From Moraxellaceae bacterium (GTDB taxonomy: Bacteria > Pseudomonadota > Gammaproteobacteria > Pseudomonadales > UBA3067): DNA of 15,135 nucleotides. Position 1 is the first letter of the stretch, and each line of letters begins with the position of its first letter. The DNA lies in NCBI GenBank assembly GCA_002401525.1, contig NVTH01000014.1, positions 1 through 15,135 of the forward strand, given 5' to 3'. The notes under the pieces were generated by a model. That model did no database searches, was not told the DNA's origin, and saw only the letters and a list, made by a program, of their open reading frames with translations. Of this stretch, positions 1 through 15,135 are shown in pieces. Position numbers and translations under genes: made by a program.

Positions 1-1
1 G

Positions 2-25
2 ACCCGCTTAAAAACCCGCTTGAAA
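2..25. repeat. Two-copy 12/13-bp direct repeat at the left edge
   Basis: The unit acccgctt(g)aaaa occurs twice in succession, differing by one inserted base. It lies in the non-coding stretch beyond the 3' end of the histidine kinase gene. No function is apparent. The rest of 1-113 shows no gene I can support. Confidence 0.5.
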
Positions 26-113
26 ACTCTGTTCTACTCTACGATACCTTGAAAGACAACAAACCGAAACAACTGAGTCACGTCACTGAACTTTGATCCC
101 GGAACTTAAAACC

Positions 114-147
114 TAGAACCTGGAATCTAGAACCTGGAATCTAGAAC
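114..147. repeat. 14-bp tandem repeat, about 2.4 copies
   Basis: The unit tagaacctggaatc is present at 114-127 and again, identically, at 128-141, followed by a partial copy tagaac at 142-147. The preceding bases (ggaacttaaaacc) look like a degenerate further copy. The array ends 6 bp from the stop codon of the minus-strand histidine kinase, so it lies in that gene's 3' flank. Each unit is close to a palindrome (ctag, tctaga), so the array could also form hairpins. Confidence 0.75.
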
Positions 148-153
148 GACAAG

Positions 154-1734: not shown

Positions 1735-1842
1735 AAAGCTCCTGATTCAATCTGATAATATTCTCTATCCAATAACAGGCGTTCTTAACCAGCATTACTC
1801 CAGTCAGTTCGCGCGTATGTTTTTTTAGTATAGTCATTTTTA

Positions 1843-1878
1843 GCCAATACTATTTCAAAGCATAGTGGCCAATATTAT
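1843..1878. promoter_or_regulatory. Candidate operator: two GCCAATAYTAT direct repeats
   Basis: GCCAATACTAT at 1843-1853 and GCCAATATTAT at 1868-1878 match at 10 of 11 positions, with starts 25 bp apart. They lie in the middle of the divergent promoter region. A regulator binding site is an inference from position and repetition only. Confidence 0.25.
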
Positions 1879-1974
1879 GACGCAAATATTTCCCCTTTAG
1901 TGACTTAGCACTGACACTCTAAGAACCCTTTGTCTCCATAAGATTGGACATTAACAGAATTTAAATAACAATTT

Positions 1975-2002
1975 TTCACAGTGATAAAGCAGGCAATATG
2001 GT
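1975..2002 (+). promoter_or_regulatory. Candidate sigma70 promoter for first lipoprotein gene
   Basis: TTCACA (1975-1980) and TATGGT (1997-2002) are separated by 16 bp and lie about 65 bp ahead of the start codon. Both hexamers are imperfect and a second -10-like TATAAG follows directly (2002-2007), so the exact start site is uncertain. Confidence 0.3.
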
Positions 2003-2067
2003 ATAAGAATCCCAGCTTATAGAAGACCCCTCTTATTTAAAAAAAATTAGCCTAAAAAGGACTCCCC

Positions 2068-4881
2068 ATGAATCACAAAAATAAGTTTTGGCTGGCGCTA
2101 TTTTTGGCATCGGTAGCCACACTCAATGGATGCAGTAGCGGCAGCAGCAGTGACGATAACGAAACCATCGAATCGGAAGCGAAAGCCTCCAGTACAGTTT
2201 CGGGTAGCGCAGTCAAAGGATTAATGTCCTTCGCCCCCGTGAGCGTGTTCCCTGTAATCAATGGGTTAATAGGCTCCACCAGTATTACAGCAGGAGAAAC
2301 TGACACCAACGGGACTTATCAATTGAACCTGGCAGATTATTCCGGTCCCGTACAATTACAGCTTAGTATTGACGACGATACCTTGATGATTTGCGACGCA
2401 TTCAATGGCTGCGGTGTGTACGCTGTAGACGATGTGTTAGACCTCAACATAGATTTGGCGATCGATTTCGGCGATAAGTATCACCCCATTGACCCCGACT
2501 TTGTTCTCACCGCATTAGTCCCCAATGTAGAAACAGGCGTCATCACCCCGGTTCAAATTACACCGCTTACACACGCCGCAGCAGAATATGCCACAAGTAG
2601 TGGCGCCAGCCTTGATGCGAACGTCATTAATGAGGCCAATTTACAACTTGCCTCAGTACTTGGCCTAACCATCGATATACTCAGCACCCCCCCCGTGGAC
2701 ATAGTCGCCATACCCGCAGACTCCGCCGACGGCAATATAGAATACGCCGCTCTACTGGCTTCATTGGCATCCATGGCCACAGAACAAGGCATTCCTGATA
2801 GTGACATGATTGCCATTTTCGTCGATGCTTTCGTCGATAATGACGGTCAATTTATTCAAAACTCAGCCACCCCTGGCGTTTTTACCTTAGAAGACCTTTA
2901 TGACAACGCCGGATCGGCACTAACCGCTGCCACCCCCAACTCAGATACCAGTCTGGTAACCGTGCAGGTGGAAATGGAACAAAATGAAAATGTTGCCGGA
3001 AATGCGCCCCCCGACACCACCACAGGCGTCGATATTCCTGATATGAATGAAGAAGAGCCGGTCAGTGCTGTTGACTCGGCCAAAGCACTCATCTCGGATG
3101 TGCGCACCTGGGGGAATGTGATTGAACAAGAAACCGACGGCCCTCTCCACGACTTAGGAGAACACGCTCAAACCATTGGTGAATCCCTTGAATTGGCGAT
3201 GAATGATCTGCAATTAAAACAAGGCATGCAAAACCTGTTTAGCCAAGAGGGTGACACTGAAGGACACGCTGTACTGCTCGTCGATGCATTACAATACGCA
3301 GTGGAAATCACTGAAGCAGTGCTAAAGGCAGGCCAAACCGCCGACGTTTATGATCTCGCAGACGAAATTCCTGGCTTGGATTCGGATATTTACGAAGACC
3401 AAGAAATCACTCGCTCGGGTGAGGTCCACGTCAACCGATCCCTCAATACAGTGGATTTTTTGGACGCCTTCATTAATGGCCAAAATGTTGACATACACTT
3501 AGAATCCTCAGATTTAGAAAGCGGATCCACCACCCACGTATTCGCTCGTTTTAGCGAAACCTTGCCTAGCTTGGTAAGCAATTCACAGGCCTCGATGATG
3601 ATCGAAGGTGGCGCCTCGATGACCACCAGCATCGCCATTAACTTGAACAACGATATTGCTGACGAAACAGTCGAACTCGGAATTCTGAGCGCCGAAGTCA
3701 TAGTGAGTGAATTAACCGGTGCCAATCCGAGTACATTTTCCGGGACCCTAGTCTCGGTCATTGGTCGTGATTTGGAGAACCTCAATATGGCAGTGGACCA
3801 GCTCTCTCTCACAGGCATCCCCAACCTCGATCAATTCCCCGGAATCCCCAGTGACATTCAAACCGATCTATACAGTCAACACCTACTTCACGTCACCGGG
3901 GTTGCTGAAGGAACCAATGAATTATTGGATGGCGTAATTTTTTGGGCAACCTCCGTCGAAGAATTACCGGTCATACTTTCTTCTGAAGACATAACGCCTG
4001 AAGCGATCACATTTGAAGAAAACTACAGTGAATTTGATCTCAAATACGCTAGCTTTAAATTTACCGGTGAACTTTCTAATGGGTTAGGCGACAGTTTTAA
4101 CGGAGAATTCGAATTCGAGATTCAAAAGCAACTGCTCGACAACCGTCGCAATGTCGCTGCTCTATCCTTTATTGGCAACATCGCAGCAAAAACGGGCGAT
4201 AGTTTCGAGGGGTCCTTTAATTTGGCGGGAGAATCACCCTTGGTGACTACTGGGCCGGACGCAGGGACAGTCGCCGTGGACGACGAAGGAAACGAAATTT
4301 TTAATCTCTCCCACGCATCCTTGAGTGGCGAGTTCTATTTCAGCACCGGAGAGTCCATGCTCGCTTCGGCCGTGGCCACGAGTGACAATGCCAGCACGTT
4401 TATTCCAGAACCTGCCCCCGAGAACGATGAATCAGAAAACAATTTCCGCAACCTCGACCTTGCCCTCTGTTTTACCACTCAACTGGCTGGATTGCCTTTG
4501 GCTCGATTTACTTTATCGGCTGAAAGAACAGGCTACCAAGACGGCATCGGCAATATCGATATTTCTTACGGCGGCGCAATCAGCAATGAAGGTGATTTCT
4601 CCGGAGCCGCCCGTCGAATTCAACTGGAACTGAATTCTCAGCAAGCATTAGACGACATCACTTCTAACCGAATCATCATCTCCAATGAAGCAGGCGTGAC
4701 GCTTACCGCCGGCGTAATATGCGCGGATGAAGACACTCAAGAGGAGTGTGAAGAGAAGCTTAATGAAGAAGGAACACAAGGCATCATCATGGTGGGCGAT
4801 GAAAAAGTCGCTGACCTGGATTTGGTGGACGATAATTGGCTGATTCGCTATACCGACGGCACCTTTGAATCCTTGTTTTAA
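2068..4881 (+). CDS. Large outer-membrane lipoprotein, paralogue 1
   Basis: This is a 937-residue predicted lipoprotein of unknown function. A charged N-terminus and hydrophobic core lead to lipobox LNGC with lipidated C22; the following Ser argues for outer-membrane sorting. A Ser/Asp-rich linker (22-45) follows. Residues about 45-105 (SGSAVKGLM.. to ..DTNGTYQLNL) resemble a carboxypeptidase-regulatory-like beta domain. A cysteine pair at 109 and 115 lies in a DDDTLMICDAFNGCG block that is identical in the next gene. A Pro/Asp/Glu-rich linker near 313-330 precedes a second half carrying the conserved SDVRTWGNVI block, then several beta-rich segments of GEFEFE/GSFNL type. A second cysteine pair is at C885 and C894, and the protein ends in DGTFESLF. 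Start choice is supported by AAGGA (2057-2061) 6 nt before the ATG. I do not recognise a named family. The tandem paralogue and the secreted protein downstream suggest a cell-surface role (inference). Confidence 0.88.
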   Translation: MNHKNKFWLALFLASVATLNGCSSGSSSDDNETIESEAKASSTVSGSAVKGLMSFAPVSVFPVINGLIGSTSITAGETDTNGTYQLNLADYSGPVQLQLSIDDDTLMICDAFNGCGVYAVDDVLDLNIDLAIDFGDKYHPIDPDFVLTALVPNVETGVITPVQITPLTHAAAEYATSSGASLDANVINEANLQLASVLGLTIDILSTPPVDIVAIPADSADGNIEYAALLASLASMATEQGIPDSDMIAIFVDAFVDNDGQFIQNSATPGVFTLEDLYDNAGSALTAATPNSDTSLVTVQVEMEQNENVAGNAPPDTTTGVDIPDMNEEEPVSAVDSAKALISDVRTWGNVIEQETDGPLHDLGEHAQTIGESLELAMNDLQLKQGMQNLFSQEGDTEGHAVLLVDALQYAVEITEAVLKAGQTADVYDLADEIPGLDSDIYEDQEITRSGEVHVNRSLNTVDFLDAFINGQNVDIHLESSDLESGSTTHVFARFSETLPSLVSNSQASMMIEGGASMTTSIAINLNNDIADETVELGILSAEVIVSELTGANPSTFSGTLVSVIGRDLENLNMAVDQLSLTGIPNLDQFPGIPSDIQTDLYSQHLLHVTGVAEGTNELLDGVIFWATSVEELPVILSSEDITPEAITFEENYSEFDLKYASFKFTGELSNGLGDSFNGEFEFEIQKQLLDNRRNVAALSFIGNIAAKTGDSFEGSFNLAGESPLVTTGPDAGTVAVDDEGNEIFNLSHASLSGEFYFSTGESMLASAVATSDNASTFIPEPAPENDESENNFRNLDLALCFTTQLAGLPLARFTLSAERTGYQDGIGNIDISYGGAISNEGDFSGAARRIQLELNSQQALDDITSNRIIISNEAGVTLTAGVICADEDTQEECEEKLNEEGTQGIIMVGDEKVADLDLVDDNWLIRYTDGTFESLF

Positions 4882-4891
4882 ACACAGTTTT

Positions 4892-4930
4892 AAACTCTGA
4901 ACAGCAGTGGCTGTTCAGAGTTTTATTACA
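4892..4930 (+). terminator. Strong intrinsic terminator after first lipoprotein gene
   Basis: A perfect 14-bp stem (4892-4905 with 4910-4923) closes a 4-base loop (agtg) and runs into T-rich sequence (ttttatta). It starts 10 bp after the stop codon, so the second lipoprotein gene probably needs its own promoter. Confidence 0.85.
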
Positions 4931-4940
4931 TCCCGATTAA

Positions 4941-4959
4941 CCCTTAGCCCTTAGCCCTA
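4941..4959. repeat. cccttag short tandem repeat
   Basis: Two copies of cccttag followed by ccctag stand just after the terminator. It is a short intergenic repeat with no visible function. Confidence 0.4.
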
Positions 4960-4965
4960 GCATTC

Positions 4966-4985
4966 AAAATACGTCCGTATTTTTT
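4966..4985 (+). terminator. Possible second, AT-rich terminator hairpin
   Basis: AAAATAC (4966-4972) and GTATTTT (4977-4983) form a 7-bp stem around GTCC and lead into two further T residues. The stem is AT-rich and weak. It may back up the stronger terminator about 45 bp upstream. The rest of the space to 5174 holds an extended-looking TATAAC (5124-5129) that could be the -10 of the next gene, with no convincing -35. Confidence 0.3.
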
Positions 4986-5174
4986 ACATACTTTCCCACA
5001 TTAACACCCTCCTCTACCCCGTCTAAAGCACCTTTTCAAGCCAACAATTACTGCAGTCCAAACCTAATAAATACCAAGTCATTAAATCTGACGAAATAAC
5101 TAACAATTAAAATAATTTCAAGGTATAACCTGCTCACGTCTAAACAGATGGCTCAAATAAATAGGGAATCAATA

Positions 5175-7922
5175 ATGATTAAAAAAGCTCTAAAGCTACT
5201 GCCATTTATTATGGTGGCGGCCGTGTCGCTCCAAGGCTGTAGTAGTGGCAGCAATAACGATAGAAACGTCAGCAGCACCGAAACAATAATTGACGAGTCC
5301 TCCACCGGCACCACACTATCCGGTAATGCAGTAAAAGGATTGATGGCTTTTGCACCGGTGAGTGTTTTCCCCATCACTGATGGGGTTATTGGCACAACCG
5401 CTCTAGTCGAGGGAGAAACTGACGCCAGCGGAGCCTACCTACTTAACCTGGCTTCCTACTCAGGCCCTGTGCAGATGCAGCTCAGTATTGACGACGATAC
5501 ACTGATGATTTGCGACGCTTTCAATGGCTGCGGAAGCTATGAGGCAGGCGATGCTTTAGACCTAAGCCTCGATTTCAGCATCGATTTCGGCGATCAATTC
5601 CACCCCAACGACCCCGAATTAGTACTCACCGCCTTAGTGCCTAACGCGTTAGAAGGCGAAGACACGGCAGTACAAATCACCCCTTTAACCCACGCCGCTG
5701 CTTTGTTCGCAATCGCTAACAATATCACTCTCGATGCCGATTCTATCTCAGTCGCCAATACGCAAATTGCCTCAGACCTGAATCTAACCATCGATATACT
5801 CAGCGCTGCTCCCGTCGACATTACTGAGATTCCGGAGAATTCCAGCAATAGCAACATTGAATACGCCGCGCTACTGGGTTCTCTAGCGTCCATGGCCACC
5901 AGTCAAGGTCGTTCCGACAGCGACATGATCAGCCTGTTTGTCAATTCCTTCCTCGAGAATGGCGGTCAATTTCTTTCCAATTCTCTCGATGACAGTAACT
6001 TCACTTTAGAAGACCTCTTTGCCAATGCAGGGGATGTACTGTCTGCGGCAGAAGACAATTCCGGGACCAAACTGACCACCGTTCAGGCGGAAATGGAGCA
6101 AAACGAACTTACTGCGCGAGAATCTAGGGTAACGACCCCTCCGCCCTCTGTTCCTGCCCCTGCTCCTGTTCTTCCTCTTAAACCCATTGACTCTGCCAAA
6201 GCACTGGTTTCAGACGTGCGCACCTGGGGCAACGTAATCCAAAAAGATCCACAAGATCCCCTTGACGACTTGGACCAGCATGTCCGCGCCATCGAAGAAT
6301 CCCTCGATATTGCAGCGGATAATCTAGAGCTCAAAAAAGGCATGGAAAATCTATTTAACGTGGCGTTTAACCAAGACCAATCGCAAGCCAAACTGCTGTT
6401 GGACGCGCTGCACTATTCATTGGACATCACCGCCGCTGTGTCAGCGGAAGGCCAAACCGCAACCAACTACAATCTCGGCAGCGAAATCCCAGGCCTTGAC
6501 TCTGACGTTTACGAGGGTCAGGAAATCATTGCCAAAGGCAATGTCAGTGTTGATCGTGACGCTCACACAGTGAATGTCAACGGCACCATCAACGAGCAAT
6601 CGGTGAGCCTACATTTTCAATCCTCAGATTTAGACAGCGAATCCACCTCAGTGGTGTTTATTCGCATCGACGAAAGTCAAACCAGCCGCGTAGAGAATAA
6701 ATTAGCTCGTATGACTCTCGCGGGGGGCGCATCAGTCTTCACCAGCATCCCCGTTGACCTCAACGAGGAAATCGACGACGAAACCATCGAAGTCGCTGTC
6801 CTCGGAATGGAAATAGTGATCCTTGAAAAATTCGGCACCCACCCCAGCACGTTTACTGGCACTCTAACCTCAGTCGTCAGCCGAGACCTGGCCAACCTAG
6901 ACGCAGCGGTGGATTCATTGCCATTAACCGGGATTCCTAATCTTGATGAGTTTCCTGGCATTCCTGATGAGATTCAAACTGACTTCTACGCGCAACACTT
7001 TTTCCGGGTCACCGGCGTTGCTGCCGGCACTGAGGAACTACTCGATGGCACAATATTTTTGTCTCAATCCGCCTCGGACGGAACCGACCTGGGCGTAAAT
7101 TTCGGTGCGTTTAATTTTACCGGTGAACTTTCCAATGGCATCGGGGATCGTATTAGCGGTGAATTCGAATTCACCTTTCAACAACAACTCGACCTTCGTC
7201 GTAATGTCGCCACACTTGCTTTTTCCGGCACCATTGAAGCCCAAAGCGGAGAAAGCTTTGAAGGTGCCTTCAGCATAGAAAGCGAATCACCTACACAGTA
7301 TTTCGGAGTTGGAGCCCCCGTCATTATCGTCGATGAAAATGGCGACGACTACACCAACCTAGCCAACGTCACTCTAAGCGGTGAATTCAATTTTGGAACG
7401 GGCAAATCAATACTTGCCTCAGCAGTGGCCAATAGCGACAACGCAGGAGCCTTTGTTCCCTCAGGAGAGGAAACTGAAAGCAATTTCCAAAACCTTAACG
7501 TTGCAATCAGCCTTAACGCTCAATTCAACAACATGCCATTAGCGCGCTTCACCCTATCAGCCCAAAGAACAGGCTTTGAGGGCGGGATCGTCCGCATGGA
7601 TATCTCCTACGGCGGCTCGATCAGCAACAACGGAGAGTTTTCCGGCGCCGCTCAACGGATTCAATTAGCGTTAGATTCTCAACAAGATCTAGATAACATT
7701 GTTTCCAATCAGATCATTATCTCCAATGAACAAGGCGTTGCTATTACACTAGGCATTAGCTGTGACGCGAATGATTCACAAGCAGAGTGTGAAAATAAAC
7801 TCAAGGACGAAGGCGTTCGTGGCGCCATCACGGTAGGCGATGATCATGTCGCCGACCTTGATTTAGCCGATGACCTTTGGCTAATCCGTTACGTTGATGG
7901 CACTTTTGAATCGCTGTTTTAA
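5175..7922 (+). CDS. Large outer-membrane lipoprotein, paralogue 2
   Basis: This 915-residue lipoprotein is a full-length paralogue of the preceding gene. I place the start at the internal ATG (5175) rather than the in-frame ATG at 5148, because AGGGA (5163-5167) stands 7 nt before it and the product then begins MIKKALKLLP, a normal lipoprotein signal ending in LQGC with lipidated C22. Both cysteine pairs are kept (C113/C119 and C863/C872), as are the DDDTLMICDAFNGCG, SDVRTWGNVI and terminal DGTFESLF blocks. The central linker differs: here it is Pro-rich (PPPSVPAPAPV), where the first copy is Asp/Glu-rich. A segment near FLSQSASDGTD is also shorter than its counterpart. Divergence is spread along the whole length, so the duplication is not recent. 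Function is unknown; a surface-exposed structural, adhesive or binding role is only a guess. Confidence 0.87.
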   Translation: MIKKALKLLPFIMVAAVSLQGCSSGSNNDRNVSSTETIIDESSTGTTLSGNAVKGLMAFAPVSVFPITDGVIGTTALVEGETDASGAYLLNLASYSGPVQMQLSIDDDTLMICDAFNGCGSYEAGDALDLSLDFSIDFGDQFHPNDPELVLTALVPNALEGEDTAVQITPLTHAAALFAIANNITLDADSISVANTQIASDLNLTIDILSAAPVDITEIPENSSNSNIEYAALLGSLASMATSQGRSDSDMISLFVNSFLENGGQFLSNSLDDSNFTLEDLFANAGDVLSAAEDNSGTKLTTVQAEMEQNELTARESRVTTPPPSVPAPAPVLPLKPIDSAKALVSDVRTWGNVIQKDPQDPLDDLDQHVRAIEESLDIAADNLELKKGMENLFNVAFNQDQSQAKLLLDALHYSLDITAAVSAEGQTATNYNLGSEIPGLDSDVYEGQEIIAKGNVSVDRDAHTVNVNGTINEQSVSLHFQSSDLDSESTSVVFIRIDESQTSRVENKLARMTLAGGASVFTSIPVDLNEEIDDETIEVAVLGMEIVILEKFGTHPSTFTGTLTSVVSRDLANLDAAVDSLPLTGIPNLDEFPGIPDEIQTDFYAQHFFRVTGVAAGTEELLDGTIFLSQSASDGTDLGVNFGAFNFTGELSNGIGDRISGEFEFTFQQQLDLRRNVATLAFSGTIEAQSGESFEGAFSIESESPTQYFGVGAPVIIVDENGDDYTNLANVTLSGEFNFGTGKSILASAVANSDNAGAFVPSGEETESNFQNLNVAISLNAQFNNMPLARFTLSAQRTGFEGGIVRMDISYGGSISNNGEFSGAAQRIQLALDSQQDLDNIVSNQIIISNEQGVAITLGISCDANDSQAECENKLKDEGVRGAITVGDDHVADLDLADDLWLIRYVDGTFESLF

Positions 7923-7935
7923 TTCAACCCGACAC

Positions 7936-7980
7936 CGCTCTAGCGTTCCTTAACTGATCAAGTTCTGTAACACTAGAGCG
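7936..7980. terminator. Inverted repeat with long loop after second lipoprotein gene
   Basis: cgctctag (7936-7943) pairs with ctagagcg (7973-7980) around a 29-base loop that contains its own small palindrome. There is no T-run after it, so it is a poor intrinsic terminator and may only stabilise the 3' end. Read-through into the gene at 8031 is possible. Confidence 0.35.
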
Positions 7981-8030
7981 ACCTTTAGCTCACACACATC
8001 CCAACCCACCACTCAAAAAGAAGCACCCTT

Positions 8031-9203
8031 TTGAAACACACATTGCTAATTTCCAACCTGATTTTAATGCTACTGACGTCTACTGCAGTCAACGCCACTT
8101 CTGATACACAAAACACTTCGGACACGACGTTAGCAAGCGTGTTTTCAAATTCGATTCAGCCCCAACTTAAAAAATTTCATCCCTACATCCACCTCAACAG
8201 TTTCACTTACAGCGAACCGATTTCCATCGATGGCATGCTCCATGAATGGGATGACGATTTACACTCAGGTGAATTGGCATTCACACAACAAAGAATTTCC
8301 GTAGGCCTGAGTCACAGCAGTGGCTGGTCCCTTGGCTGGATAAGCCGATACGACTATTTTTTAGAATTCACCGAAGACACGGCGTTGCTTTATCATCAAG
8401 GCGAAAACGACTTGCCCGCCAGCCGGGATTATCACTACCAACTATTCTTGCGCGCAGAACACGCTAAAAGCAGTGGCCCTCAAATCGCTTATCAAACGCC
8501 CCTATTAAAGTTTGGGCCTGAACAAAGTCATCAAATAAAAGTCAAAATTCAAATCGCACGACTGACGTCGAATCAACTTTATAACGGATCCATTTGGGGC
8601 GAAGCCATCCTACTGGAAAATGACGACATTGAAGCGCAACTCAACATCGATTACGCCTATCACGAAGATTCCTTGTTTGATCGCCCATTAACCAACACGA
8701 TCGAAGGACAAGGGTTGAGTGTCGATTTATTTGCGGATTGGCAATTTAAACAATGGCAGGTTTCTCTGACACTTTTAGATGCTTATTATCGAGTGAAGTG
8801 GCAGGACAACCCGTTCACGACGGCCATCATAAGCACCGACACCAGAGGCGTGGACGAAAACGGATTTATTCGTTACAGCCCAATTCTTTCCGGCCTAGAA
8901 GGCAATAAAGATTTCATTCAAAAATTACCCCTCGACCTTTACCTCAATACGGCCTATCAGTGGAACCAGCATTGGGGATCATTTGTTAACTATCATCACG
9001 TCGCGTCAACACACTTCTATCAACTGGGCATGGAATATTTCAGCCTGGGCAAAGCCAGTTACTTTTTAGCCTATCAAGAGCCTACTCAAGCCCTTTCTCT
9101 AGGGTTTAAATACGATACATTTGAAATTTCTTTGGGCCTAGACAGTCTTTCTACAAACAATGCACAAACCTTAGCCATTCAATTGATCTGGGGCCTGAAC
9201 TAA
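8031..9203 (+). CDS. Secreted protein, probable outer-membrane beta-barrel
   Basis: This 390-residue protein carries a Sec signal peptide (hydrophobic 4-20, likely cleaved after AVNA, residue 22). The mature part is rich in Tyr, Trp and Phe and has many alternating polar/hydrophobic stretches (such as WQVSLTLLDAYYRVKW and ASYFLAYQEPTQALSLGFKY) that look like membrane beta-strands. It ends in a hydrophobic/aromatic strand, AIQLIWGLN, without the usual C-terminal Phe. The start is a TTG; AAAAAGAAG (8015-8023) stands 7 nt upstream and the signal peptide begins right there, so I accept it, although a second TTG lies at 8043. It follows the second lipoprotein gene by about 110 bp in the same direction and may be co-transcribed. 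I do not recognise the family; a barrel partner for the two lipoproteins is an attractive but untested reading. Confidence 0.75.
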   Translation: MKHTLLISNLILMLLTSTAVNATSDTQNTSDTTLASVFSNSIQPQLKKFHPYIHLNSFTYSEPISIDGMLHEWDDDLHSGELAFTQQRISVGLSHSSGWSLGWISRYDYFLEFTEDTALLYHQGENDLPASRDYHYQLFLRAEHAKSSGPQIAYQTPLLKFGPEQSHQIKVKIQIARLTSNQLYNGSIWGEAILLENDDIEAQLNIDYAYHEDSLFDRPLTNTIEGQGLSVDLFADWQFKQWQVSLTLLDAYYRVKWQDNPFTTAIISTDTRGVDENGFIRYSPILSGLEGNKDFIQKLPLDLYLNTAYQWNQHWGSFVNYHHVASTHFYQLGMEYFSLGKASYFLAYQEPTQALSLGFKYDTFEISLGLDSLSTNNAQTLAIQLIWGLN

Positions 9204-9287
9204 CAACCCATCACCCTCCCGCATTAAAATAGCCTCCAATTCCTATTAATTCAGCATCAAACGCCTATCGACTGCCAAGGCTGCTAT

Positions 9288-9332
9288 GCATTAAGTAACC
9301 GCGCATTAAGTAACGGCGCATCATGTAATGGC
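9288..9332. repeat. 15-bp tandem repeat, three copies
   Basis: The unit gcattaagtaaccgc at 9288-9302 recurs at 9303-9317 with one change and at 9318-9332 in a more diverged form (gcatcatgtaatggc). It lies in the leader region about 150 bp ahead of the aldolase-family gene. Confidence 0.7.
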
Positions 9333-9482
9333 ACTTCAACTATTTGTATATTTCTAACCACAGCATTACACTCACTGAACAAACTCGAAAAGAGATCTGC
9401 GCGAGAAAGTCTCCCTGTCCCGAATAAAAATATTAGGCCCATTAAAACAATAAAAAAACCAAAACAAAGCAAGGATATCACT

Positions 9483-10292
9483 ATGGCCGGTTTAAAATTC
9501 CCCACAGAAAAACCTTCAGAGAACGCGTCGAATGCTTCCGCTGAAAAATCTGCAAAGCCAAAATCAATGTCCAAAGAGGAATGGCAAATCCGAATTGATT
9601 TAGCTGCTTGTTATCGCTTAGTGGCTCATTACGGCTGGGATGACATGATCTTTACTCATCTATCAGCACGAGTACCTAGTTCGGACCATCATTTCTTGAT
9701 CAACCCTTATGGCATGCTGTTTAGCGAAATCACTGCCTCATCTCTGGTGAAAGTGGATCAAGAAGCCAATATCATTGGTGACAGCGATTACGGCGTCAAT
9801 CCTGCCGGATTTACCATTCATAGCGCGGTGCACATGGCCCGGCCGGAAGCCGGCGCAGTGCTGCACTTACACACGCGTGCCGGCATGGCCGTTTCCGCGC
9901 AATCGGAAGGGCTGCTGCCTTTAACTCAAACCTCAATGTTAGTGTTACCAAAAATTACTTACCATGACTATGAAGGGGTAGCAGTCAACCTGGAGGAACG
10001 AGAAAGGATTGTTCAAGACCTTGGCGAGCAAGACCTAATGATACTGCGCAATCACGGCACACTTGCGGTGGGTAATTCGATTCCTGAAGCATTTTTACTG
10101 ATGTATTTTTTAGAAAAAGCCTGCGACGCTCAGATCGCTGCTCAATCAGGCGGCAGTGCACTGAACATACCCTCCAACCAAGCATTAGAAACCACCAGCA
10201 AACAATCCGAGGGGATTCACATGGCTGGCCACATGGCTTGGCCGGCATTGTTAAGAATGCTGGATCGACAAGACGATTCTTTTAGGCTTTGA
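9483..10292 (+). CDS. Class II aldolase/adducin family protein
   Basis: This is a 269-residue protein of the class II aldolase/adducin fold, whose enzymatic members are Zn-dependent sugar-phosphate aldolases and epimerases (FucA, AraD). Visible family blocks are FTHLSARVP (57-65), INPYGMLFSEIT (73-84), NPAGFTIHSAVHMARPEAGAVLHLHT (106-131), YHDYEGVAV (160-168) and RNHGTLAVG (189-197). The likely Zn-binding histidines H128, H130 and H191 are present. The Glu that serves as catalytic acid and base in FucA appears replaced by Gly109, as in the adducin-like branch (NPAGF..H), so classical aldolase activity is doubtful. A Ser/Ala/Lys-rich tail (about 10-30) precedes the domain. AAGGA (9471-9475) sits 7 nt before the ATG. 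It converges on the PmoC-like gene. The substrate cannot be told from sequence. Family assignment is firm, function open. Confidence 0.92.
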   Translation: MAGLKFPTEKPSENASNASAEKSAKPKSMSKEEWQIRIDLAACYRLVAHYGWDDMIFTHLSARVPSSDHHFLINPYGMLFSEITASSLVKVDQEANIIGDSDYGVNPAGFTIHSAVHMARPEAGAVLHLHTRAGMAVSAQSEGLLPLTQTSMLVLPKITYHDYEGVAVNLEERERIVQDLGEQDLMILRNHGTLAVGNSIPEAFLLMYFLEKACDAQIAAQSGGSALNIPSNQALETTSKQSEGIHMAGHMAWPALLRMLDRQDDSFRL

Positions 10293-10370
10293 TTGATTAT
10301 TAAAAAACAGACCTTTTAACTACTCATCCCCTAATACCGCCTCATTCCAGCTCTCACCTGCCCCGCCCTT

Positions 10371-10401
10371 CTCCGTCATTCCCGCGAAGGCGGGAATCCA
10401 T
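10371..10401 (+). repeat. REP-like palindrome, left arm of 31-bp inverted pair
   Basis: This 31-bp element contains the hairpin attcccgc-gaag-gcgggaat. It is exactly the reverse complement of 10508-10538. Such sequences are typical dispersed extragenic palindromes in proteobacterial genomes. It lies about 80 bp past the stop of the aldolase-family gene, between convergent genes. Confidence 0.85.
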
Positions 10402-10507
10402 CGAGTTCAGAGCTATAAATTCAGCCGTTTTCTTTATTCTATTTTCGTAGTCACCGTGCTCGCACCAGGAGAGCTAGGAACATTCGTATAGCAAACCCAT
10501 TATCGGC

Positions 10508-10538
10508 ATGGATTCCCGCCTTCGCGGGAATGACGGAG
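10508..10538 (-). repeat. REP-like palindrome, right arm of 31-bp inverted pair
   Basis: This is the perfect inverted copy of 10371-10401, 106 bp away, giving a BIME-like pair. Being only 40 bp past the stop of the minus-strand PmoC-like gene, its GC-rich hairpin may also protect or end that transcript. No other gene is visible in the 285-bp gap 10293-10577. Confidence 0.85.
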
Positions 10539-10577
10539 GAGAGCCGATAACGAGTGAGAGCCGAAATAACGATAAAT

Positions 10578-11435
10578 TTACGCAGCCTTTAAATTTTCTT
10601 CTTGCTCTGCCTTCGTTATTGCCGTCAATGTACGCACTCGACTTAATGCTTGAATGATAAATCCACCCAAACCAAATAAAGCCCAACCCAAGGTAACAAA
10701 TCCATAATGTATCGGAGCCGCGAATAATTCTTCCGCGTAAAAAAAGGTATGGCCCCATTCGTTAAATCCGACGTTGGGCATAATTAAAATCGGCCCAGAC
10801 AAAACAATAAGGAGGGGAATCGAAACGCGCTGATAATAATCCGGCAACCGAGTATGCAGCCAAACAAATGCAAGCGCTAAAGAAACAACCCCGATGGGAA
10901 TCGCGTAATAAAATAAACTGATATGAGTCGGTGTAAAATCAGTGTCACGAATAGTAATCTGATGCCACGCCGCATCTGACTCTGCGTATAACGCCAAAAT
11001 CATCACCACAAAAACACTCGCCACCATCATGATCGAAAATACTAAATAGTATCGCGACAACTCCTGCAAAGGCGTCATCGTTAAAATATTTTTCGGTCGA
11101 GTAAACCACAACGTGGGAATTGAAATAAGTCCAAACAGAATAATTAGCGGCAATTGAATCCAGAGCAGATTCATAAAATAGGTTTGAAATTCGGGCTCAA
11201 ACGCATCCAAGCCGTAAATTAAAGCAAATGAAGTCATGTACCAACGATAGCCGCCTAACAATACTATCCCTATCGCCATCAGCACCAAGGGAGGTTTTAG
11301 CGGAATCTGAGGAATACCATTTTTCACTGGATAGAGGAATAAATCGAACCCAGTAGACGGAGCGAACTGTTGGGAAGCGGGAGTCTCCTTATCAACATAA
11401 GGAGAAAGAGACGGATTTGAAACGCGAGTGGCCAT
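10578..11435 (-). CDS. pmoC: PmoC/AmoC-like copper membrane monooxygenase subunit C, orphan
   Basis: This 285-residue integral membrane protein belongs to the C-subunit family of copper-dependent membrane monooxygenases (methane, ammonia and short-chain hydrocarbon oxidation). About six hydrophobic segments are seen (near 48-72, 88-110, 130-150, 172-193, 205-222 and 240-265). Diagnostic blocks are GLDAFEPEFQTYFMNLL (75-91), WHQITIRDTDFTPTHI (157-172) and NEWGHTFFYAEELFAAPIHYG (225-245). The CuC ligands correspond to D154, H158 and H171; the neighbouring CuD-type ligands to N225, H229 and H243. Both sets have exactly the spacing known from Methylococcus PmoC (D156/H160/H173 and N227/H231/H245). 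The length is normal, so this is not a fragment. AGGGA (11443-11447) lies 7 nt ahead of the ATG. In most operons the order is C-A-B, but no A or B gene follows: the next downstream sequence is the REP pair. It may serve a complex encoded elsewhere, as solitary amoC copies do in nitrifiers. The substrate cannot be deduced. Confidence 0.93.
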   Translation of the reverse strand: MATRVSNPSLSPYVDKETPASQQFAPSTGFDLFLYPVKNGIPQIPLKPPLVLMAIGIVLLGGYRWYMTSFALIYGLDAFEPEFQTYFMNLLWIQLPLIILFGLISIPTLWFTRPKNILTMTPLQELSRYYLVFSIMMVASVFVVMILALYAESDAAWHQITIRDTDFTPTHISLFYYAIPIGVVSLALAFVWLHTRLPDYYQRVSIPLLIVLSGPILIMPNVGFNEWGHTFFYAEELFAAPIHYGFVTLGWALFGLGGFIIQALSRVRTLTAITKAEQEENLKAA

Positions 11436-11598
11436 AAATAGTTCCCTTTATTAAAGTACATTCTTATTGAACGATACTCCCGGGACTACTTACTTTTTCA
11501 ATCCGGTTTAATTAATCCTTCATACCAGAATACGATAATACAATTAAACGTTTTGAATCATACCCAATCGCTATTGGTTACACATCTTCCTGTATAGT

Positions 11599-11627
11599 TT
11601 ATTAGTCGTCAATATCTAATTAGGCAA
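11599..11627 (-). promoter_or_regulatory. Candidate promoter for the PmoC-like gene
   Basis: On the minus strand, TTGCCT (11622-11627) and TAATAA (11599-11604) are 17 bp apart, leaving a leader of roughly 155 nt before the start codon. The hexamers match sigma70 consensus only moderately. The gene therefore may have its own transcript, separate from the peptidase gene upstream. Confidence 0.3.
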
Positions 11628-11691
11628 GGGAATAAGTGCTTTAATATAGATTACAAATGCACCCTGCATAAAAAAACACCACTCTTATCCA

Positions 11692-11703
11692 GACCGGCCG
11701 GTC
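11692..11703 (-). terminator. 12-bp GC-rich palindrome after peptidase gene
   Basis: gaccggccggtc is a perfect palindrome 5 bp beyond the stop codon of the minus-strand peptidase gene; on that strand it is followed about 15 nt later by a run of seven T residues. It could be an unusual terminator or a protein-binding site, but the distance to the T-run is too long for a classical intrinsic terminator. Confidence 0.35.
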
Positions 11704-11708
11704 ACACA

Positions 11709-12785
11709 TCAATAATAATGCGCAAACTTTTCTTTATCCAACCAGCGGTAAAAATCTCGCTGCAAGTTCGTTAATCCACCCGGGTAATAGCGTTCAAAAA
11801 CGTCTTTCGCCAACGTAGAAACCTCGCCCTCATCGTTTAAATGAAACAGTAAACGACGAAATACATCGCGATTGGACTCCGAAGACAGCAGATAAAAAAC
11901 CAATGCACCGGACCAACCGTACATGGGATCACCCTCGCCCTGTTTCGCATAGAATACGGGTTGAGAAAGCCGGGTCAATTGTTCCAAATCGATAAAAGTA
12001 CCGCTTTCAAACTTCTGTTTTACTTTTTTAATTTGATACGCACTGATGGGGATTTTTATCGCCTGGCCCGAAAGTTTCATTTGTTCAAAATACTCTGCCG
12101 TCCCCTCCCCCAACCAAGTGGGTATGCGTTTATAGCGATGCCTCATTAATGCGTGAGTCACCTCATGACTAATCACCTCTATCATTCGTTCTGGATTTCG
12201 GTTTTGCCAAACGTGTGCAGTATTATCCCGAGGACGATAAAAGGCCGGCACGTTTCGATCGCCACCGGTCTTTCTACCCTGGTTAAAAAGTGCCGTAACA
12301 CTGTCGCGCTCTTTATAGATGATTAACGTTAAGGAATTAAAGTCGCTCAAATCCACTGCAAATTCTTTTTGCAGAATAGAGCGTATTTTTTTCACCACAA
12401 TAATAATTCGATTTTTAACATCCACCGCCATGACGCCCTTTTCCACCACCACCTTTACATCAAAATCTCGACTATGATCATATTTAGCGGAAAAATCTTC
12501 GATCACTTGTGTTTTATTGTTTGGTTTTGCATCGCCAAAATGCACTTTGCCATGTTCATCCACCCACTTGTATATCTCCCCCTGAGTCAGCGATGAAAAG
12601 CCAAAACACGTCACTGCAAGCATTAAAAGCAGCACTCGGGGATGGCAACGGGCGTCGCTCGATGGGTGGGAAACGAACCTCCGATCTGACCGAGGCTCAC
12701 GAATAGAATTAAATTGGATCAAAAAGACGATTCGAAAGGCCGTATACAGCACGGCATGCTGAATTATATTAGGCAAAATACTCAC
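11709..12785 (-). CDS. Secreted DUF4124 / peptidase-MA-like metalloprotease
   Basis: This 358-residue protein joins a short DUF4124-type domain (EIYKWVDEHGKVHFGDAKP, 70-88) to a gluzincin metallopeptidase domain of the peptidase MA-like type. The zinc motif is HEVTH (207-211), with WLGEGTAEYFE (224-234) supplying the third ligand, probably E227. The domain ends normally (YRWLDKEKFAHYY). The segment VLLLMLAVTCFGFSSLTQG (51-69) is a typical signal peptide placed directly before DUF4124, yet the reading frame opens 50 codons earlier. The listed GTG at 12785 has AGGA 6 nt upstream and a TATAAT box further up, which supports it. The alternative GTG at 12635 would start just at the signal peptide but has no Shine-Dalgarno sequence. 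It should act in the periplasm or at the membrane. The gene is divergent from the YheT-like hydrolase. Substrates are unknown. Confidence 0.88.
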   Translation of the reverse strand: MSILPNIIQHAVLYTAFRIVFLIQFNSIREPRSDRRFVSHPSSDARCHPRVLLLMLAVTCFGFSSLTQGEIYKWVDEHGKVHFGDAKPNNKTQVIEDFSAKYDHSRDFDVKVVVEKGVMAVDVKNRIIIVVKKIRSILQKEFAVDLSDFNSLTLIIYKERDSVTALFNQGRKTGGDRNVPAFYRPRDNTAHVWQNRNPERMIEVISHEVTHALMRHRYKRIPTWLGEGTAEYFEQMKLSGQAIKIPISAYQIKKVKQKFESGTFIDLEQLTRLSQPVFYAKQGEGDPMYGWSGALVFYLLSSESNRDVFRRLLFHLNDEGEVSTLAKDVFERYYPGGLTNLQRDFYRWLDKEKFAHYY

Positions 12786-12822
12786 GTTTATCCTAAATTA
12801 AAAAGGCTTGATGCATTCTAGG

Positions 12823-12828
12823 ATTATA
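12823..12828 (-). promoter_or_regulatory. Consensus -10 box for the peptidase gene
   Basis: On the minus strand the bases read TATAAT, a perfect -10 hexamer, about 37 bp ahead of the GTG start at 12785. No good -35 is seen at 16-18 bp (aagcct/caagcc), so an activator may be needed. The position supports the upstream start codon of the peptidase. Confidence 0.45.
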
Positions 12829-13014
12829 AGCCAGGGCCCAAATAAGGCTTGGCGCTAGCACCAATAGTCGTCCGAAAACCAGGGGATTTCGTCGTATTCC
12901 CAAGAGCCCTATTTCGAACTAGTCCAATTTCTGGGCCCTCATATTAGCGCAGGCTACTTCCCTAAAGCATTGATAGCCATGAACTAATTACATAACAACG
13001 CAAGATGAAAAAGA

Positions 13015-13043
13015 TTTACATTAATCCGTTCCGCGCCTAGAAT
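13015..13043 (+). promoter_or_regulatory. Likely sigma70 promoter for the YheT-like hydrolase
   Basis: TTTACA (13015-13020) and TAGAAT (13038-13043), each 5 of 6 to consensus, are separated by the ideal 17 bp. Transcription would begin near 13050, about 60 nt ahead of the start codon. Confidence 0.6.
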
Positions 13044-13111
13044 AACCGCCCCCGGAATGGACTGATTCGAACCGATACTCACCATCATTACCCAACACCC
13101 AATAGTACTCT

Positions 13112-14212
13112 ATGCCCTACATCACACAATCAAGCTACACATCTCGAGGCCTCTTTAAGTCAGGTCATGTACAAACCATCTACCCCACCCTGTTTCGTAC
13201 AGTGAACCACTCTCGCGCTCAATCCAAATCTAGCCCCAAGCACCAAAACCAATGCTCATATCAACACCAATACAGGCGTGAACGGCTGGAATTATTAGAC
13301 GGTGACTTCCTTGATTTGGATTGGACAACTCATGCAGACTGCAATAACGACCGCAACGATACCCACAACACCCGCAACACCCGCAACACCCACAACGGCA
13401 AGCACAAGCACAACGGCCGACTCGCCATACTTTGTCACGGCTTGGAAAGTTCTACCGATGCGACTTACATGCGCTGCATGGCCAAAGCGTGCCATTTAAG
13501 CGGCTGGGATAGCGTGGGTTATAACTTTCGCGGCTGTAGCGGCGAACCCAACCGTCTGCCTCACGCCTATCACTGTGGATTAACGGAAGATTTAGATAAA
13601 GTGGTACAACATGCGATCAAGACCGATCGTTATCGATCCATTTCTCTGATCGGATTCAGCTTGGGGGGCAATCTAGTCTTAAAATATTTGGGAGAACGAG
13701 GGCAAGACGTAGCGCCTCAAATTACCAATGCGGCCGCAGTGTCAGTGCCTTGCGATTTAGCAGACAGTTCAATTGAATTGGAACGCTGGGACAACTGGGT
13801 CTATAAAACCCGTTTTCTTCGTTTGCTAGTGTCGAAATCTAAGTTGAAAAAGGCCCTCATCAGCCAGCAGCTCGGTCAATGGCCCAGCGATGAAATTCGT
13901 TCGATTAAAGACTTTGACGAGTATTTCACCGCACCGCTGAATAATTTCAGGGGTGCGGACCATTACTACGAAACCACCAGCTCGATTCGATTTCTAAGCC
14001 AAATCCAACGCCCCACCCTGCTCCTTAATGCCAAAAACGATCCGCTACTGGGGGAGAATTGCTACCCCTACTCGATCGCCGAAAATAATGCCGCGCTCTA
14101 CTTGGAGACGCCGCTCTACGGCGGCCATGTGGGGTTTATACAAGACGCTCCTGATGATTTATATTGGCACGAACAGCGCATTCTGGAATTCCTTAACAGC
14201 ACTCAAGCTTGA
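13112..14212 (+). CDS. YheT-like alpha/beta-fold hydrolase
   Basis: This 366-residue serine hydrolase belongs to the YheT group (COG0429-like). The group signature near the N-terminus, SGHVQTIYPTLFR (17-29), is followed by the oxyanion-region LCHGLESS (107-114), the NFRGCSGEPNR block (138-148) and the nucleophile elbow GFSLGGN (181-187) with S183. D310 (NAKNDPLLG) and H339 (YGGHVGF) complete the probable triad. It is presumably a cytoplasmic or membrane-associated esterase; the natural substrate of the family is not settled. Residues 84-101 are an insertion rich in Asn, His, Arg and Thr, encoded by a 9-bp tandem repeat between two beta-strands before the HG motif, which makes the protein slightly longer than usual. 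The ATG lacks a clear Shine-Dalgarno sequence, but a good promoter stands about 60 bp upstream. It faces the DUF5062-like gene. Confidence 0.92.
   Translation: MPYITQSSYTSRGLFKSGHVQTIYPTLFRTVNHSRAQSKSSPKHQNQCSYQHQYRRERLELLDGDFLDLDWTTHADCNNDRNDTHNTRNTRNTHNGKHKHNGRLAILCHGLESSTDATYMRCMAKACHLSGWDSVGYNFRGCSGEPNRLPHAYHCGLTEDLDKVVQHAIKTDRYRSISLIGFSLGGNLVLKYLGERGQDVAPQITNAAAVSVPCDLADSSIELERWDNWVYKTRFLRLLVSKSKLKKALISQQLGQWPSDEIRSIKDFDEYFTAPLNNFRGADHYYETTSSIRFLSQIQRPTLLLNAKNDPLLGENCYPYSIAENNAALYLETPLYGGHVGFIQDAPDDLYWHEQRILEFLNSTQA
13361..13396 (+). repeat. In-frame 9-bp minisatellite within hydrolase gene
   Basis: Four consecutive 9-bp units, acccacaac / acccgcaac / acccgcaac / acccacaac, encode (Thr-His/Arg-Asn)x4. 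They differ only at the fifth base. The flanking bases (gataacg-like and aagcacaagcacaacggc) look like further diverged units. Copy-number change would keep the frame. Confidence 0.9.
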
Positions 14213-14221
14213 TTTTCCTAT

Positions 14222-14230
14222 CCCCCCCCC
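14222..14230. repeat. Nine-cytosine homopolymer
   Basis: A run of nine C residues lies 10 bp after the hydrolase stop codon, between convergent genes. Such tracts slip readily, but here no reading frame crosses it. Confidence 0.6.
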
Positions 14231-14247
14231 TTACAAACTCCTGCGTT

Positions 14248-14268
14248 AAAACCCCGGCTTGGGGCCGG
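14248..14268 (-). terminator. Intrinsic terminator of the DUF5062-like gene
   Basis: Read on the minus strand, ccggc (14264-14268) and gccgg (14254-14258) form a GC-rich stem around cccaa, followed by gg and four T residues (14248-14251). It overlaps the region right after the stop codon and may also work for the converging hydrolase transcript. Confidence 0.6.
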
Positions 14269-14269
14269 C

Positions 14270-14533
14270 CTAGGCCTTCATTAACGGATGATCTTCCGGC
14301 AGCTGTTTAGCCATCCAAAGCGCTAGTTTTCGTTTCATATTGACGTCATTTTGCTGCTGCTTCGCTAAAGGCTGGATTAGCTTATCGTGAACCAGCAATT
14401 GATACAGATAATGCACTTTTTCCTTTGCTGAATCGGTGGCTTCAAACTCCCCCACACCGCGTTTCTTCGCGTAGACGCCCCCGACTCTCAATGCTTCTTT
14501 GAGTAATTCCGCTTCATTGTCAATTTTTTTCAT
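14270..14533 (-). CDS. DUF5062 family small protein
   Basis: This 87-residue, highly charged, apparently all-helical cytoplasmic protein matches what I remember of the DUF5062 family from Vibrio and other gammaproteobacteria. The recognisable blocks are MKKIDNEAELLKEAL at the start, YAKKRGVGEFE in the middle, LYQLLVHDKLIQPL (43-56) and MKRKLALWMAKQLPEDHPL (66-84) near the end. The family has no assigned function. There is no signal peptide, membrane segment or cysteine. AAGGA (14540-14544) lies 6 nt ahead of the ATG, so the start is secure. It is a single-gene unit, converging with the hydrolase and divergent from the acyltransferase. Confidence 0.85.
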   Translation of the reverse strand: MKKIDNEAELLKEALRVGGVYAKKRGVGEFEATDSAKEKVHYLYQLLVHDKLIQPLAKQQQNDVNMKRKLALWMAKQLPEDHPLMKA

Positions 14534-14599
14534 CGCGCATCCTTTTTTATAATCACTACCGCTTTTTTATGCTCGTTCCTAGACAGAACCACGTAGATT

Positions 14600-14667
14600 A
14601 TAGAGCCACTAAAACCATAGAACCACCGAAATAATAGAACCACCAAAATAATAGAACCACCGCTAAA
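14600..14667. repeat. 17-bp tandem repeat, four copies
   Basis: The unit atagaaccaccgaaata is seen at 14617-14633 and 14634-14650 with one difference, flanked by a diverged copy at 14600-14616 and a fourth, partly diverged copy from 14651. The array stands between the divergent DUF5062-like and acyltransferase genes, just before a candidate promoter. Confidence 0.85.
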
Positions 14668-14668
14668 A

Positions 14669-14697
14669 TTGACGCAAGCTGCGCAATTATTGATATT
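14669..14697 (+). promoter_or_regulatory. Candidate promoter for the acyltransferase gene
   Basis: TTGACG (14669-14674) and GATATT (14692-14697) are 17 bp apart and lie immediately after the 17-bp repeat array. Transcription would begin near 14704, about 110 nt ahead of the start codon. Confidence 0.4.
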
Positions 14698-14813
14698 ACC
14701 AATCTTCACTCATTCCTTTCACCAAAAATCAACTCCATGACTATACTTTCAAGCGAGTAGAACGAATAGACAGGATTTTCTTACGCCAAACCGAATTAGA
14801 ACAAACCGGCCAA

Positions 14814-15135
14814 ATGAGAACAAGCGGGGTTCAATTGCTACAAGCTCAACGACAGGAAGTCATTCAGCCTCGCCAAATACAGCCTACTCAACTAGAGAAC
14901 CTCACGCCTCTGCGCGGTATAGGCTCGATATTCGTATTAGTGTTCCACTTAAGATTTCAGTTCCCCGCCTTCAACGAGTTTATTCAACTGCACACCCAAT
15001 TTTTTCATCGCACCTATATTTGGGTGGATTTCTTTTTTATCCTTAGCGGCTTTGTCATTAATCACGTCTATGGAAAGAGCTTTGATAAAGGCTTTACGTT
15101 ACGCAAAGGGCGCCGCTTTATCGTGTCTCGTTTCG
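14814..15135 (+). CDS. Acyltransferase-3 family membrane protein (OafA-like), 5' part
   Basis: The first 107 codons of a gene that runs off the window. After a Gln-rich, probably cytoplasmic N-terminal stretch (residues 5-28) comes the family opening LENLTPLRGIGSIFVLVFH (about 28-46), where the Arg and final His match the conserved R and H of acyltransferase-3 proteins. Next is YIWVDFFFILSGFVINHVYG (about 66-85), which matches the usual VDlFFvLSGFli block, then a basic segment ending in RRFIVSRF, the normal start of the R-x-x-R-hxP region. The complete family is about 350-650 residues with ten or more membrane helices and O-acylates sugars of LPS, exopolysaccharide or glycolipids. The frame is open from 14694, but 14814 is its only ATG; it lacks a clear Shine-Dalgarno sequence, so the start is moderately sure. 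Substrate unknown. Confidence 0.85.
   Translation, partial: MRTSGVQLLQAQRQEVIQPRQIQPTQLENLTPLRGIGSIFVLVFHLRFQFPAFNEFIQLHTQFFHRTYIWVDFFFILSGFVINHVYGKSFDKGFTLRKGRRFIVSRF

Follow-up and report, generated by a model that had tools for sequence, protein, structure and literature searches.

A solitary pmoC/amoC-type gene at positions 10578..11435 of the window probably encodes a working C subunit that would join, in trans, A and B subunits encoded at distant loci, as one of a divergent set of C proteins. The window is the whole stretch of DNA that was analysed (15,135 nucleotides); it represents bases 1-15135 of the 29,397-base contig C159 of G000, a MAG of 3.37 Mb in 250 contigs and 74% complete.

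The solitary C gene and its locus

ORF, profile and structure searches identified a pmoC/amoC-type gene of 285 aa on the minus strand (11435..10578 as read), where positions 10578-11435 form a single unbroken reading frame of 285 codons; the plus strand across this interval is full of stops. The Pfam AmoC profile (PF04896) covers residues 57-271 with an E-value of 2.1e-63 and a score of 214.4 bits (cut-off 26.7), and with phmmer, matches were obtained to 14 different PmoC/AmoC chains from enzymes of solved structure, the best at E 1.3e-55. The core of the protein aligns with C chains from solved pMMO and AMO structures, and its ligand stretches line up in the three phmmer alignments shown, with 7s4l among the chains compared. 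The copper ligands D154/H158/H171 and N225/H229/H243 are present with the spacing D-x3-H-x12-H and N-x3-H-x13-H, exactly as an earlier note on this DNA, silent on the strand, had read them, and we take these six residues to be the CuC and CuD sites. The structure model has a mean pLDDT of 78, with low-confidence regions (pLDDT < 50) at residues 1-30, 224-226 and 228-237. All 20 PDB matches of the model at E ≤ 0.001 are CuMMO C subunits, the best being 7s4h (E 2.1e-13, TM-score 0.81 over the target), and the predicted structure has the PmoC membrane fold. Two NCBIfam equivalog models scored below their cut-offs (NF041641, 234.1 versus 319; TIGR03078, 205.7 versus 280.6), which places the protein on a divergent branch of the PmoC/AmoC family. 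As judged from its sequence, it is of a type other than the classical methane or bacterial ammonia type.

The genome-wide search of G000 revealed no A or B match anywhere on the 29,397 bases of C159, and no A or B gene adjoins the C gene; adjoining genes of this kind were what the earlier note had named as a ground for rejecting its reading. The nearest upstream gene, 273 bases away on the same (minus) strand, encodes a DUF4124 / DUF1570 protein (11709..12785), and a gene for a class II aldolase/adducin family protein (9483..10292, plus strand) is convergent with the C gene. Both are neighbours of the C gene also in G001, a genome of the same genus from the sister species NORP74 (77% and 84% identity, respectively), where the orthologous C protein shares 76% identity over 285 aa and the neighbours match on both sides by BLAST. 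A protein search revealed the orthologues P0002 (89% identity) and P0003 (76%), each of 285 aa. For the G000/G001 pair, pN/pS is 0.21, dN 0.17 and dS ~2.3, and the resulting dN/dS of ~0.07 is only rough because synonymous sites are saturated (pS 0.72). Two operonic C pairs gave pN/pS values of 0.07 and 0.20, and five neighbouring genes 0.07-0.25. These values indicate that the window gene is under purifying selection, and dN/dS is not near 1, the sign of relaxed selection against which the earlier note had set its claim of functional constraint. The gene encodes a genuine full-length C subunit under constraint.

The 193 bases upstream of the gene (11436..11628, minus strand) aligned with those of the NORP74 orthologue with a local score of 141, whereas none of 2000 shuffled pairs scored above 40. 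Conservation is densest at 11579-11628, with 46 of 50 columns identical between the two species. This conserved block suggests that the window gene has a regulatory region of its own. A promoter motif shared by all C genes was not found among 253 upstream pairs from G000 and G001: the five best scores belong to orthologous pairs, and the best cross-locus score, 38 for two A genes, lies within the null maximum of 40. The motif GATATTGACGACTAATAAA has a single occurrence in the window, and a scan for consensus promoters and terminators gave no more matches than in shuffles.

Elsewhere in the window, positions 2068-4881 and 5148-7922 encode tandem paralogous lipoprotein-like proteins of ~930 aa (55% identical, no Pfam family). 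Downstream of the C gene lies a 37-nt inverted repeat pair (10365-10544), 95% complementary with arms 106 nt apart. Its core recurs in paired form close to a second solitary C gene, that of contig C137 (L026 2686-2828); as the loci searched were mostly C-gene loci, no link of the repeat to C genes is claimed.

C, A and B genes in G000 and related genomes

G000 contains nine C, three A and three B matches. These searches ruled out an orphan reading of the window gene: the absence of A and B partners stated in the earlier note holds for the contig and fails for the genome. All A and B matches lie on contigs C118, C129 and C163, each of which carries C-A-B (on C118, the contig end truncates the C gene to 204 aa), in keeping with the suggestion in that note of a spare subunit for a distant monooxygenase operon. 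The remaining six C genes are solitary. For five of them, more than 1 kb of downstream sequence is available and contains no A gene; the sixth (C177) ends 107 bases from its contig end, but its orthologue G001 C66 is followed by a convergent gene. According to the trees, all six have one-to-one orthologues in G001. Five of these pairs share neighbours on both sides (the window pair by BLAST, so that the gene stands in the same place in NORP74, and four by eye), and the C177/C66 pair has a common neighbour on the upstream side, as seen by eye from protein start positions. Two extra solitary copies of G001 (C46_a and C58b) have no partner in the less complete G000.

Solitary C genes also occur outside this genus. 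Among 56 genomes sampled from genus to order, seven have C matches: G000-G004, all from one family, with 5-10 matches for C and 1-3 for A each (parts of broken genes and, in G004, a short fragment of an A gene are included in these counts), G024 with two of each, and G028 with one of each. Further genomes with an excess of C are UBA5859 (G057, identical to G067 by coordinates; 96% complete) with nine C and one A, Gammapro7 (G056) with six C matches (one a 40-residue fragment) and two A, and WOFB31 (G058) with three C and two A. In a sample of 369 genomes of the class, 11 have C matches, and the excess of C over A reaches at least four only in G000, G067, G195 (99% complete) and G307 (96% complete). 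With at most seven candidates scored per genome here, G000 and G067 have at least the numbers counted, and one candidate of G195 was left unscored. G067, G195 and G307 belong to the same class as G000 and to other orders, and the C gene set is therefore either old or transferred.

Altogether, G000 and nine gammaproteobacterial relatives each have 1-8 solitary C genes and 1-3 A genes. The window gene, whose solitary state the earlier note had thought unusual, is thus one of six in its own genome and one of 54 solitary-labelled pieces in the ten genomes. At least 1 kb of downstream sequence is available for 45 of these pieces; the other nine have less and could be cut-off operons, and G003 C35_a and C35_b, both among the 54, seem to be parts of a single gene. 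With contig-edge copies counted, eight of the ten genomes have at least five solitary-labelled copies. A tree of 106 C proteins places 65 rows in one clade (support 100/98), of which 53 are solitary-labelled and 12 operonic, one of the latter coming from G024. C reading frames of up to 190 aa (G003 C35_a and G004 C209) were left out of the trees and the ligand count, duplicates were dropped (six loci from the early ligand and tree comparison, twelve from later trees on), and methanotroph rows were reduced to six in the A tree and eight in the C tree.

It is scarcely credible that the window gene is a decaying relic, a recent stray duplicate or a MAG contaminant. Such an origin would suit the fragmented assembly and the broken state of some clade copies (G003 C35_b is truncated, and G004 C209 has a stop), but the full-length orthologues at 89% and 76% identity, the shared neighbours, the pN/pS of 0.21 and the conserved upstream block argue against it. 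Moreover, multi-copy C occurs also in genomes that are 96-99% complete with 1% contamination (G002, G067, G195 and G307).

Several solitary C genes are clustered: G002 C131 has three on one strand (L149 5125-8608), G001 C46 a convergent pair (L139 5409-7379) and G307 C6 a divergent pair (L220 5372-8087).

A phage origin of the window gene was rejected, since its neighbours are conserved chromosomal genes and a viral scan gave only two distant loci. These two contigs from viral collections (L188 and L189) carry a C gene 45-48% identical to that of the window, with no A gene beside it within the 4-5 kb read.

AB operons without C and the divergence of C proteins

Six of the ten genomes contain an A-B-D operon that lacks an adjoining C gene (G002 C169, G003 C107, G056 C21, G058 C83, G195 C28 and G307 C1; loci L152, L158, L190, L191, L209 and L216), and no C match was found on any of these six contigs. 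In this operon type, A-B-D is followed by a multicopper oxidase (Pfam) and then by a cupredoxin-like gene, which was named by eye and, like D, has no family match. Among the six operons, only that of G195 showed no oxidase (within 14 kb), and four showed the cupredoxin-like gene. A C gene heads the A-B-D operon in G000 C129 and G001 C69 and lies 0.8 kb upstream of it in G057 C8; G004 C181 is cut at the contig end and is uninformative in this respect. In the A tree (53 rows), the A proteins of the C-less operons group with those of C129, C69 and C8 (support 95/81). This tree predates G195 and G307, whose C-less operons were assigned by identity to the A protein of G000 C129 (67% and 70%, versus 48% and 50% for their other A proteins). 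In G002 and G003, the operon is flanked by clpB, as in G000 C129, where C is present, and no remnant of a C gene was recognised in the 0.8-0.9-kb gap of these two genomes (best E 0.09). The B gene of G003 (L158) reads as two ORFs.

Since these AB operons have no C gene beside them, their C subunit is needed from elsewhere in the genome, and the simplest reading is that another C gene provides it. The solitary C genes are the obvious candidates for this source. A further operon, this one with C, is present in five of the six genomes, and its C subunit may serve the C-less AB genes; in G003 (79% complete), no other A was seen. The C-less operons are confined to the relatives, whereas the three AB pairs of G000 each have a C gene. 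In the available excerpts of Khadka et al. 2018 (PMC6215863), bacterial AB genes are described as always clustered with C. The six C-less operons are exceptions to this rule.

The C paralogues of G000 are only 47-64% identical to each other (median 54), and within-genome identity over all clade genomes ranges from 40 to 79%. This divergence bears on the reading that the solitary gene just adds more of the same C subunit, for dosage or backup, as the near-identical copies of nitrifiers and methanotrophs may do. Two control genomes, G378 with five C and three A genes and G193 with three C and two A, do have extra C genes whose A partners lie elsewhere, but the C copies of these genomes are 97-100% and 88-98% identical, respectively, and the divergent solitary copies studied here are each conserved between species, which makes dosage an unlikely explanation. 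Divergence alone is no proof of specialisation, because divergent C genes are found also in G400 (two genes at 47% identity, both beside an A gene) and in G024 (two at 47%, both operonic).

Of the 64 clade copies that exceed 190 aa, 63 have the complete set of six ligands; the remaining one is a truncated ORF. A set of 65 operonic C proteins from outside the clade defines 57 near-invariant positions, of which solitary copies keep a median fraction of 0.947, no less than the 0.929 of the clade's operonic copies (53 and 11 rows, respectively; p 0.10). Site variability of 42 solitary rows is correlated with that of the 65 outside operonic proteins (Spearman 0.74 over 222 sites). The near-invariant sites that vary within the clade are not significantly nearer to the ligands in distance along the sequence (p 0.54), so that this test lends no support to substrate specialisation. 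Two of the sites, positions 177 and 224 in window numbering, are near-invariant phenylalanines in the operonic C subunits outside the clade and vary among clade copies (F/G/L/M/A/Y at 177, F/L/Y at 224). Position 224 adjoins the ligand N225, and both sites are offered only as leads; the available part of a paper on the M. trichosporium pMMO (PMC9024549) was of no help on the pocket.

The pattern of conservation also bears on a role of the C protein independent of A and B, such as storing copper or handling it, the latter an alternative raised by the earlier note, or acting as a sensor. Such independence would be compatible with the position of the gene alone on its contig, with the first 56 residues outside the Pfam match and with the low model confidence for residues 1-30. 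We regard it as very improbable and as less likely than a spare subunit for a distant operon, given that the same near-invariant positions are kept, that site variability resembles that of operonic C subunits, that an A gene is present in each of the ten genomes and that six relatives have AB operons without an adjoining C. In addition, no copper-handling family was found among the ten window proteins scanned.

Likely substrate, proposed mechanism and known systems

For the distant operons, the earlier note had left a choice between hydrocarbon and ammonia oxidation, of which the hydrocarbon branch now appears likelier. None of the six clade genomes searched matched the hydroxylamine oxidoreductase (HAO) family PF13447 expected of a bacterial ammonia oxidiser (the result for G000 itself being read from a 74%-complete assembly), whereas control G378 gave three matches. 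All six have PQQ alcohol dehydrogenases scoring over the TIGR03075 cut-off, versus none of the 14 control genomes, and these predicted enzymes could act on the alcohol product of a short-chain hydrocarbon CuMMO. The four that were read have 744-754 aa, a single CxxCH motif at about residue 640 and, at the C-terminus, a cytochrome c domain. Such an architecture presumably points to quinohaem alcohol dehydrogenases and not to methanol dehydrogenase. In the A tree, the methanotroph rows are separate from these A proteins, although support for the deep fork is weak (74/86). Together, the HAO result, the PQQ alcohol dehydrogenases and the position of the A proteins favour short-chain alkane or alkene oxidation as the predicted activity, and ammonia oxidation by these enzymes seems unlikely.

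Under the preferred reading, assembly in trans, the window C gene would be transcribed as its own unit from its own putative promoter, and its product would join A and B proteins from distant operons, replacing the operonic C. The copper sites would be occupied in the assembled C subunit, and the complete CuMMO would hydroxylate a putative short-chain hydrocarbon in the membrane, the resulting alcohol then presumably being oxidised by the PQQ alcohol dehydrogenase. Each retained C paralogue may yield an enzyme version suited to a particular condition or substrate, a division of labour among the C genes.

More tentatively, the few A-B platforms of each genome might share divergent, separately regulated and interchangeable C subunits, forming a modular monooxygenase, although we consider this rather doubtful. 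Because C carries the putative active-site coppers, swapping it could alter substrate or affinity without new operons. If the modular reading is true, these bacteria change substrate or affinity by exchanging C, and some lineages keep an AB operon without a C of its own.

The active-site subunit of CuMMO is a long-standing question. The available text of PMC7674155 refers to growing evidence that the role of PmoC is essential. A clade that has multiplied and diversified C far more than A, and that has AB operons without C, represents a natural experiment on this question, with the prediction that C sets specificity and that A-B accepts several C subunits. Surveys based on pmoA would count 1-3 genes here, missing most of the enzyme diversity in these bacteria.

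CuMMO operons from Porticoccaceae and other marine Gammaproteobacteria (L080, L085-L088, L090-L094 and L096), which we take to be of the hydrocarbon type, have the same A-B-D-multicopper oxidase-cupredoxin-like gene order as G000 C129. At these loci, C heads each operon, in contrast to the AB operons without an adjoining C in six genomes of the window clade. No report of a C expansion of the kind seen here was found in the open-licence literature searched, and none on the MAGs NORP74, NORP332, UBA5859, Gammapro7 and WOFB31. Stand-alone C genes beside operonic copies are known as pmoC in methanotrophs and amoC in ammonia-oxidising bacteria, according to the available parts of PMC6215863, PMC7674155 and PMC10030591. 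Like the window gene, these copies lie away from the CAB operon and are additional to the operonic ones, but copies in the two control genomes are 88-100% identical, versus 40-79% within genomes of the window clade. Extra amoC genes of some bacteria have been implicated in stress response, as stated in the available part of PMC10030591. Lone pmoC genes without A or B have been described in large freshwater phages, where they are over 90% like host copies and have been proposed to augment the host enzyme (PMC7674155, available excerpts). The window gene is likewise a lone C but lies among conserved chromosomal genes.

A parallel in arrangement comes from soil ammonia-oxidising archaea, which, in the excerpts available, have dispersed C homologues like the window clade. 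Nitrososphaera viennensis has single amoA and amoB genes and many dispersed C homologues, and one of its six AmoC proteins is primary in the native complex (PMC10030591, available part). This organism is an archaeal ammonia oxidiser, whereas the window clade comprises bacteria with operons, a PQQ alcohol dehydrogenase and no HAO match. In its function, the window gene probably resembles these known solitary C genes. Solitary C genes as such are known; in the literature searched, the large divergent set together with the AB operons without C appears to be new.
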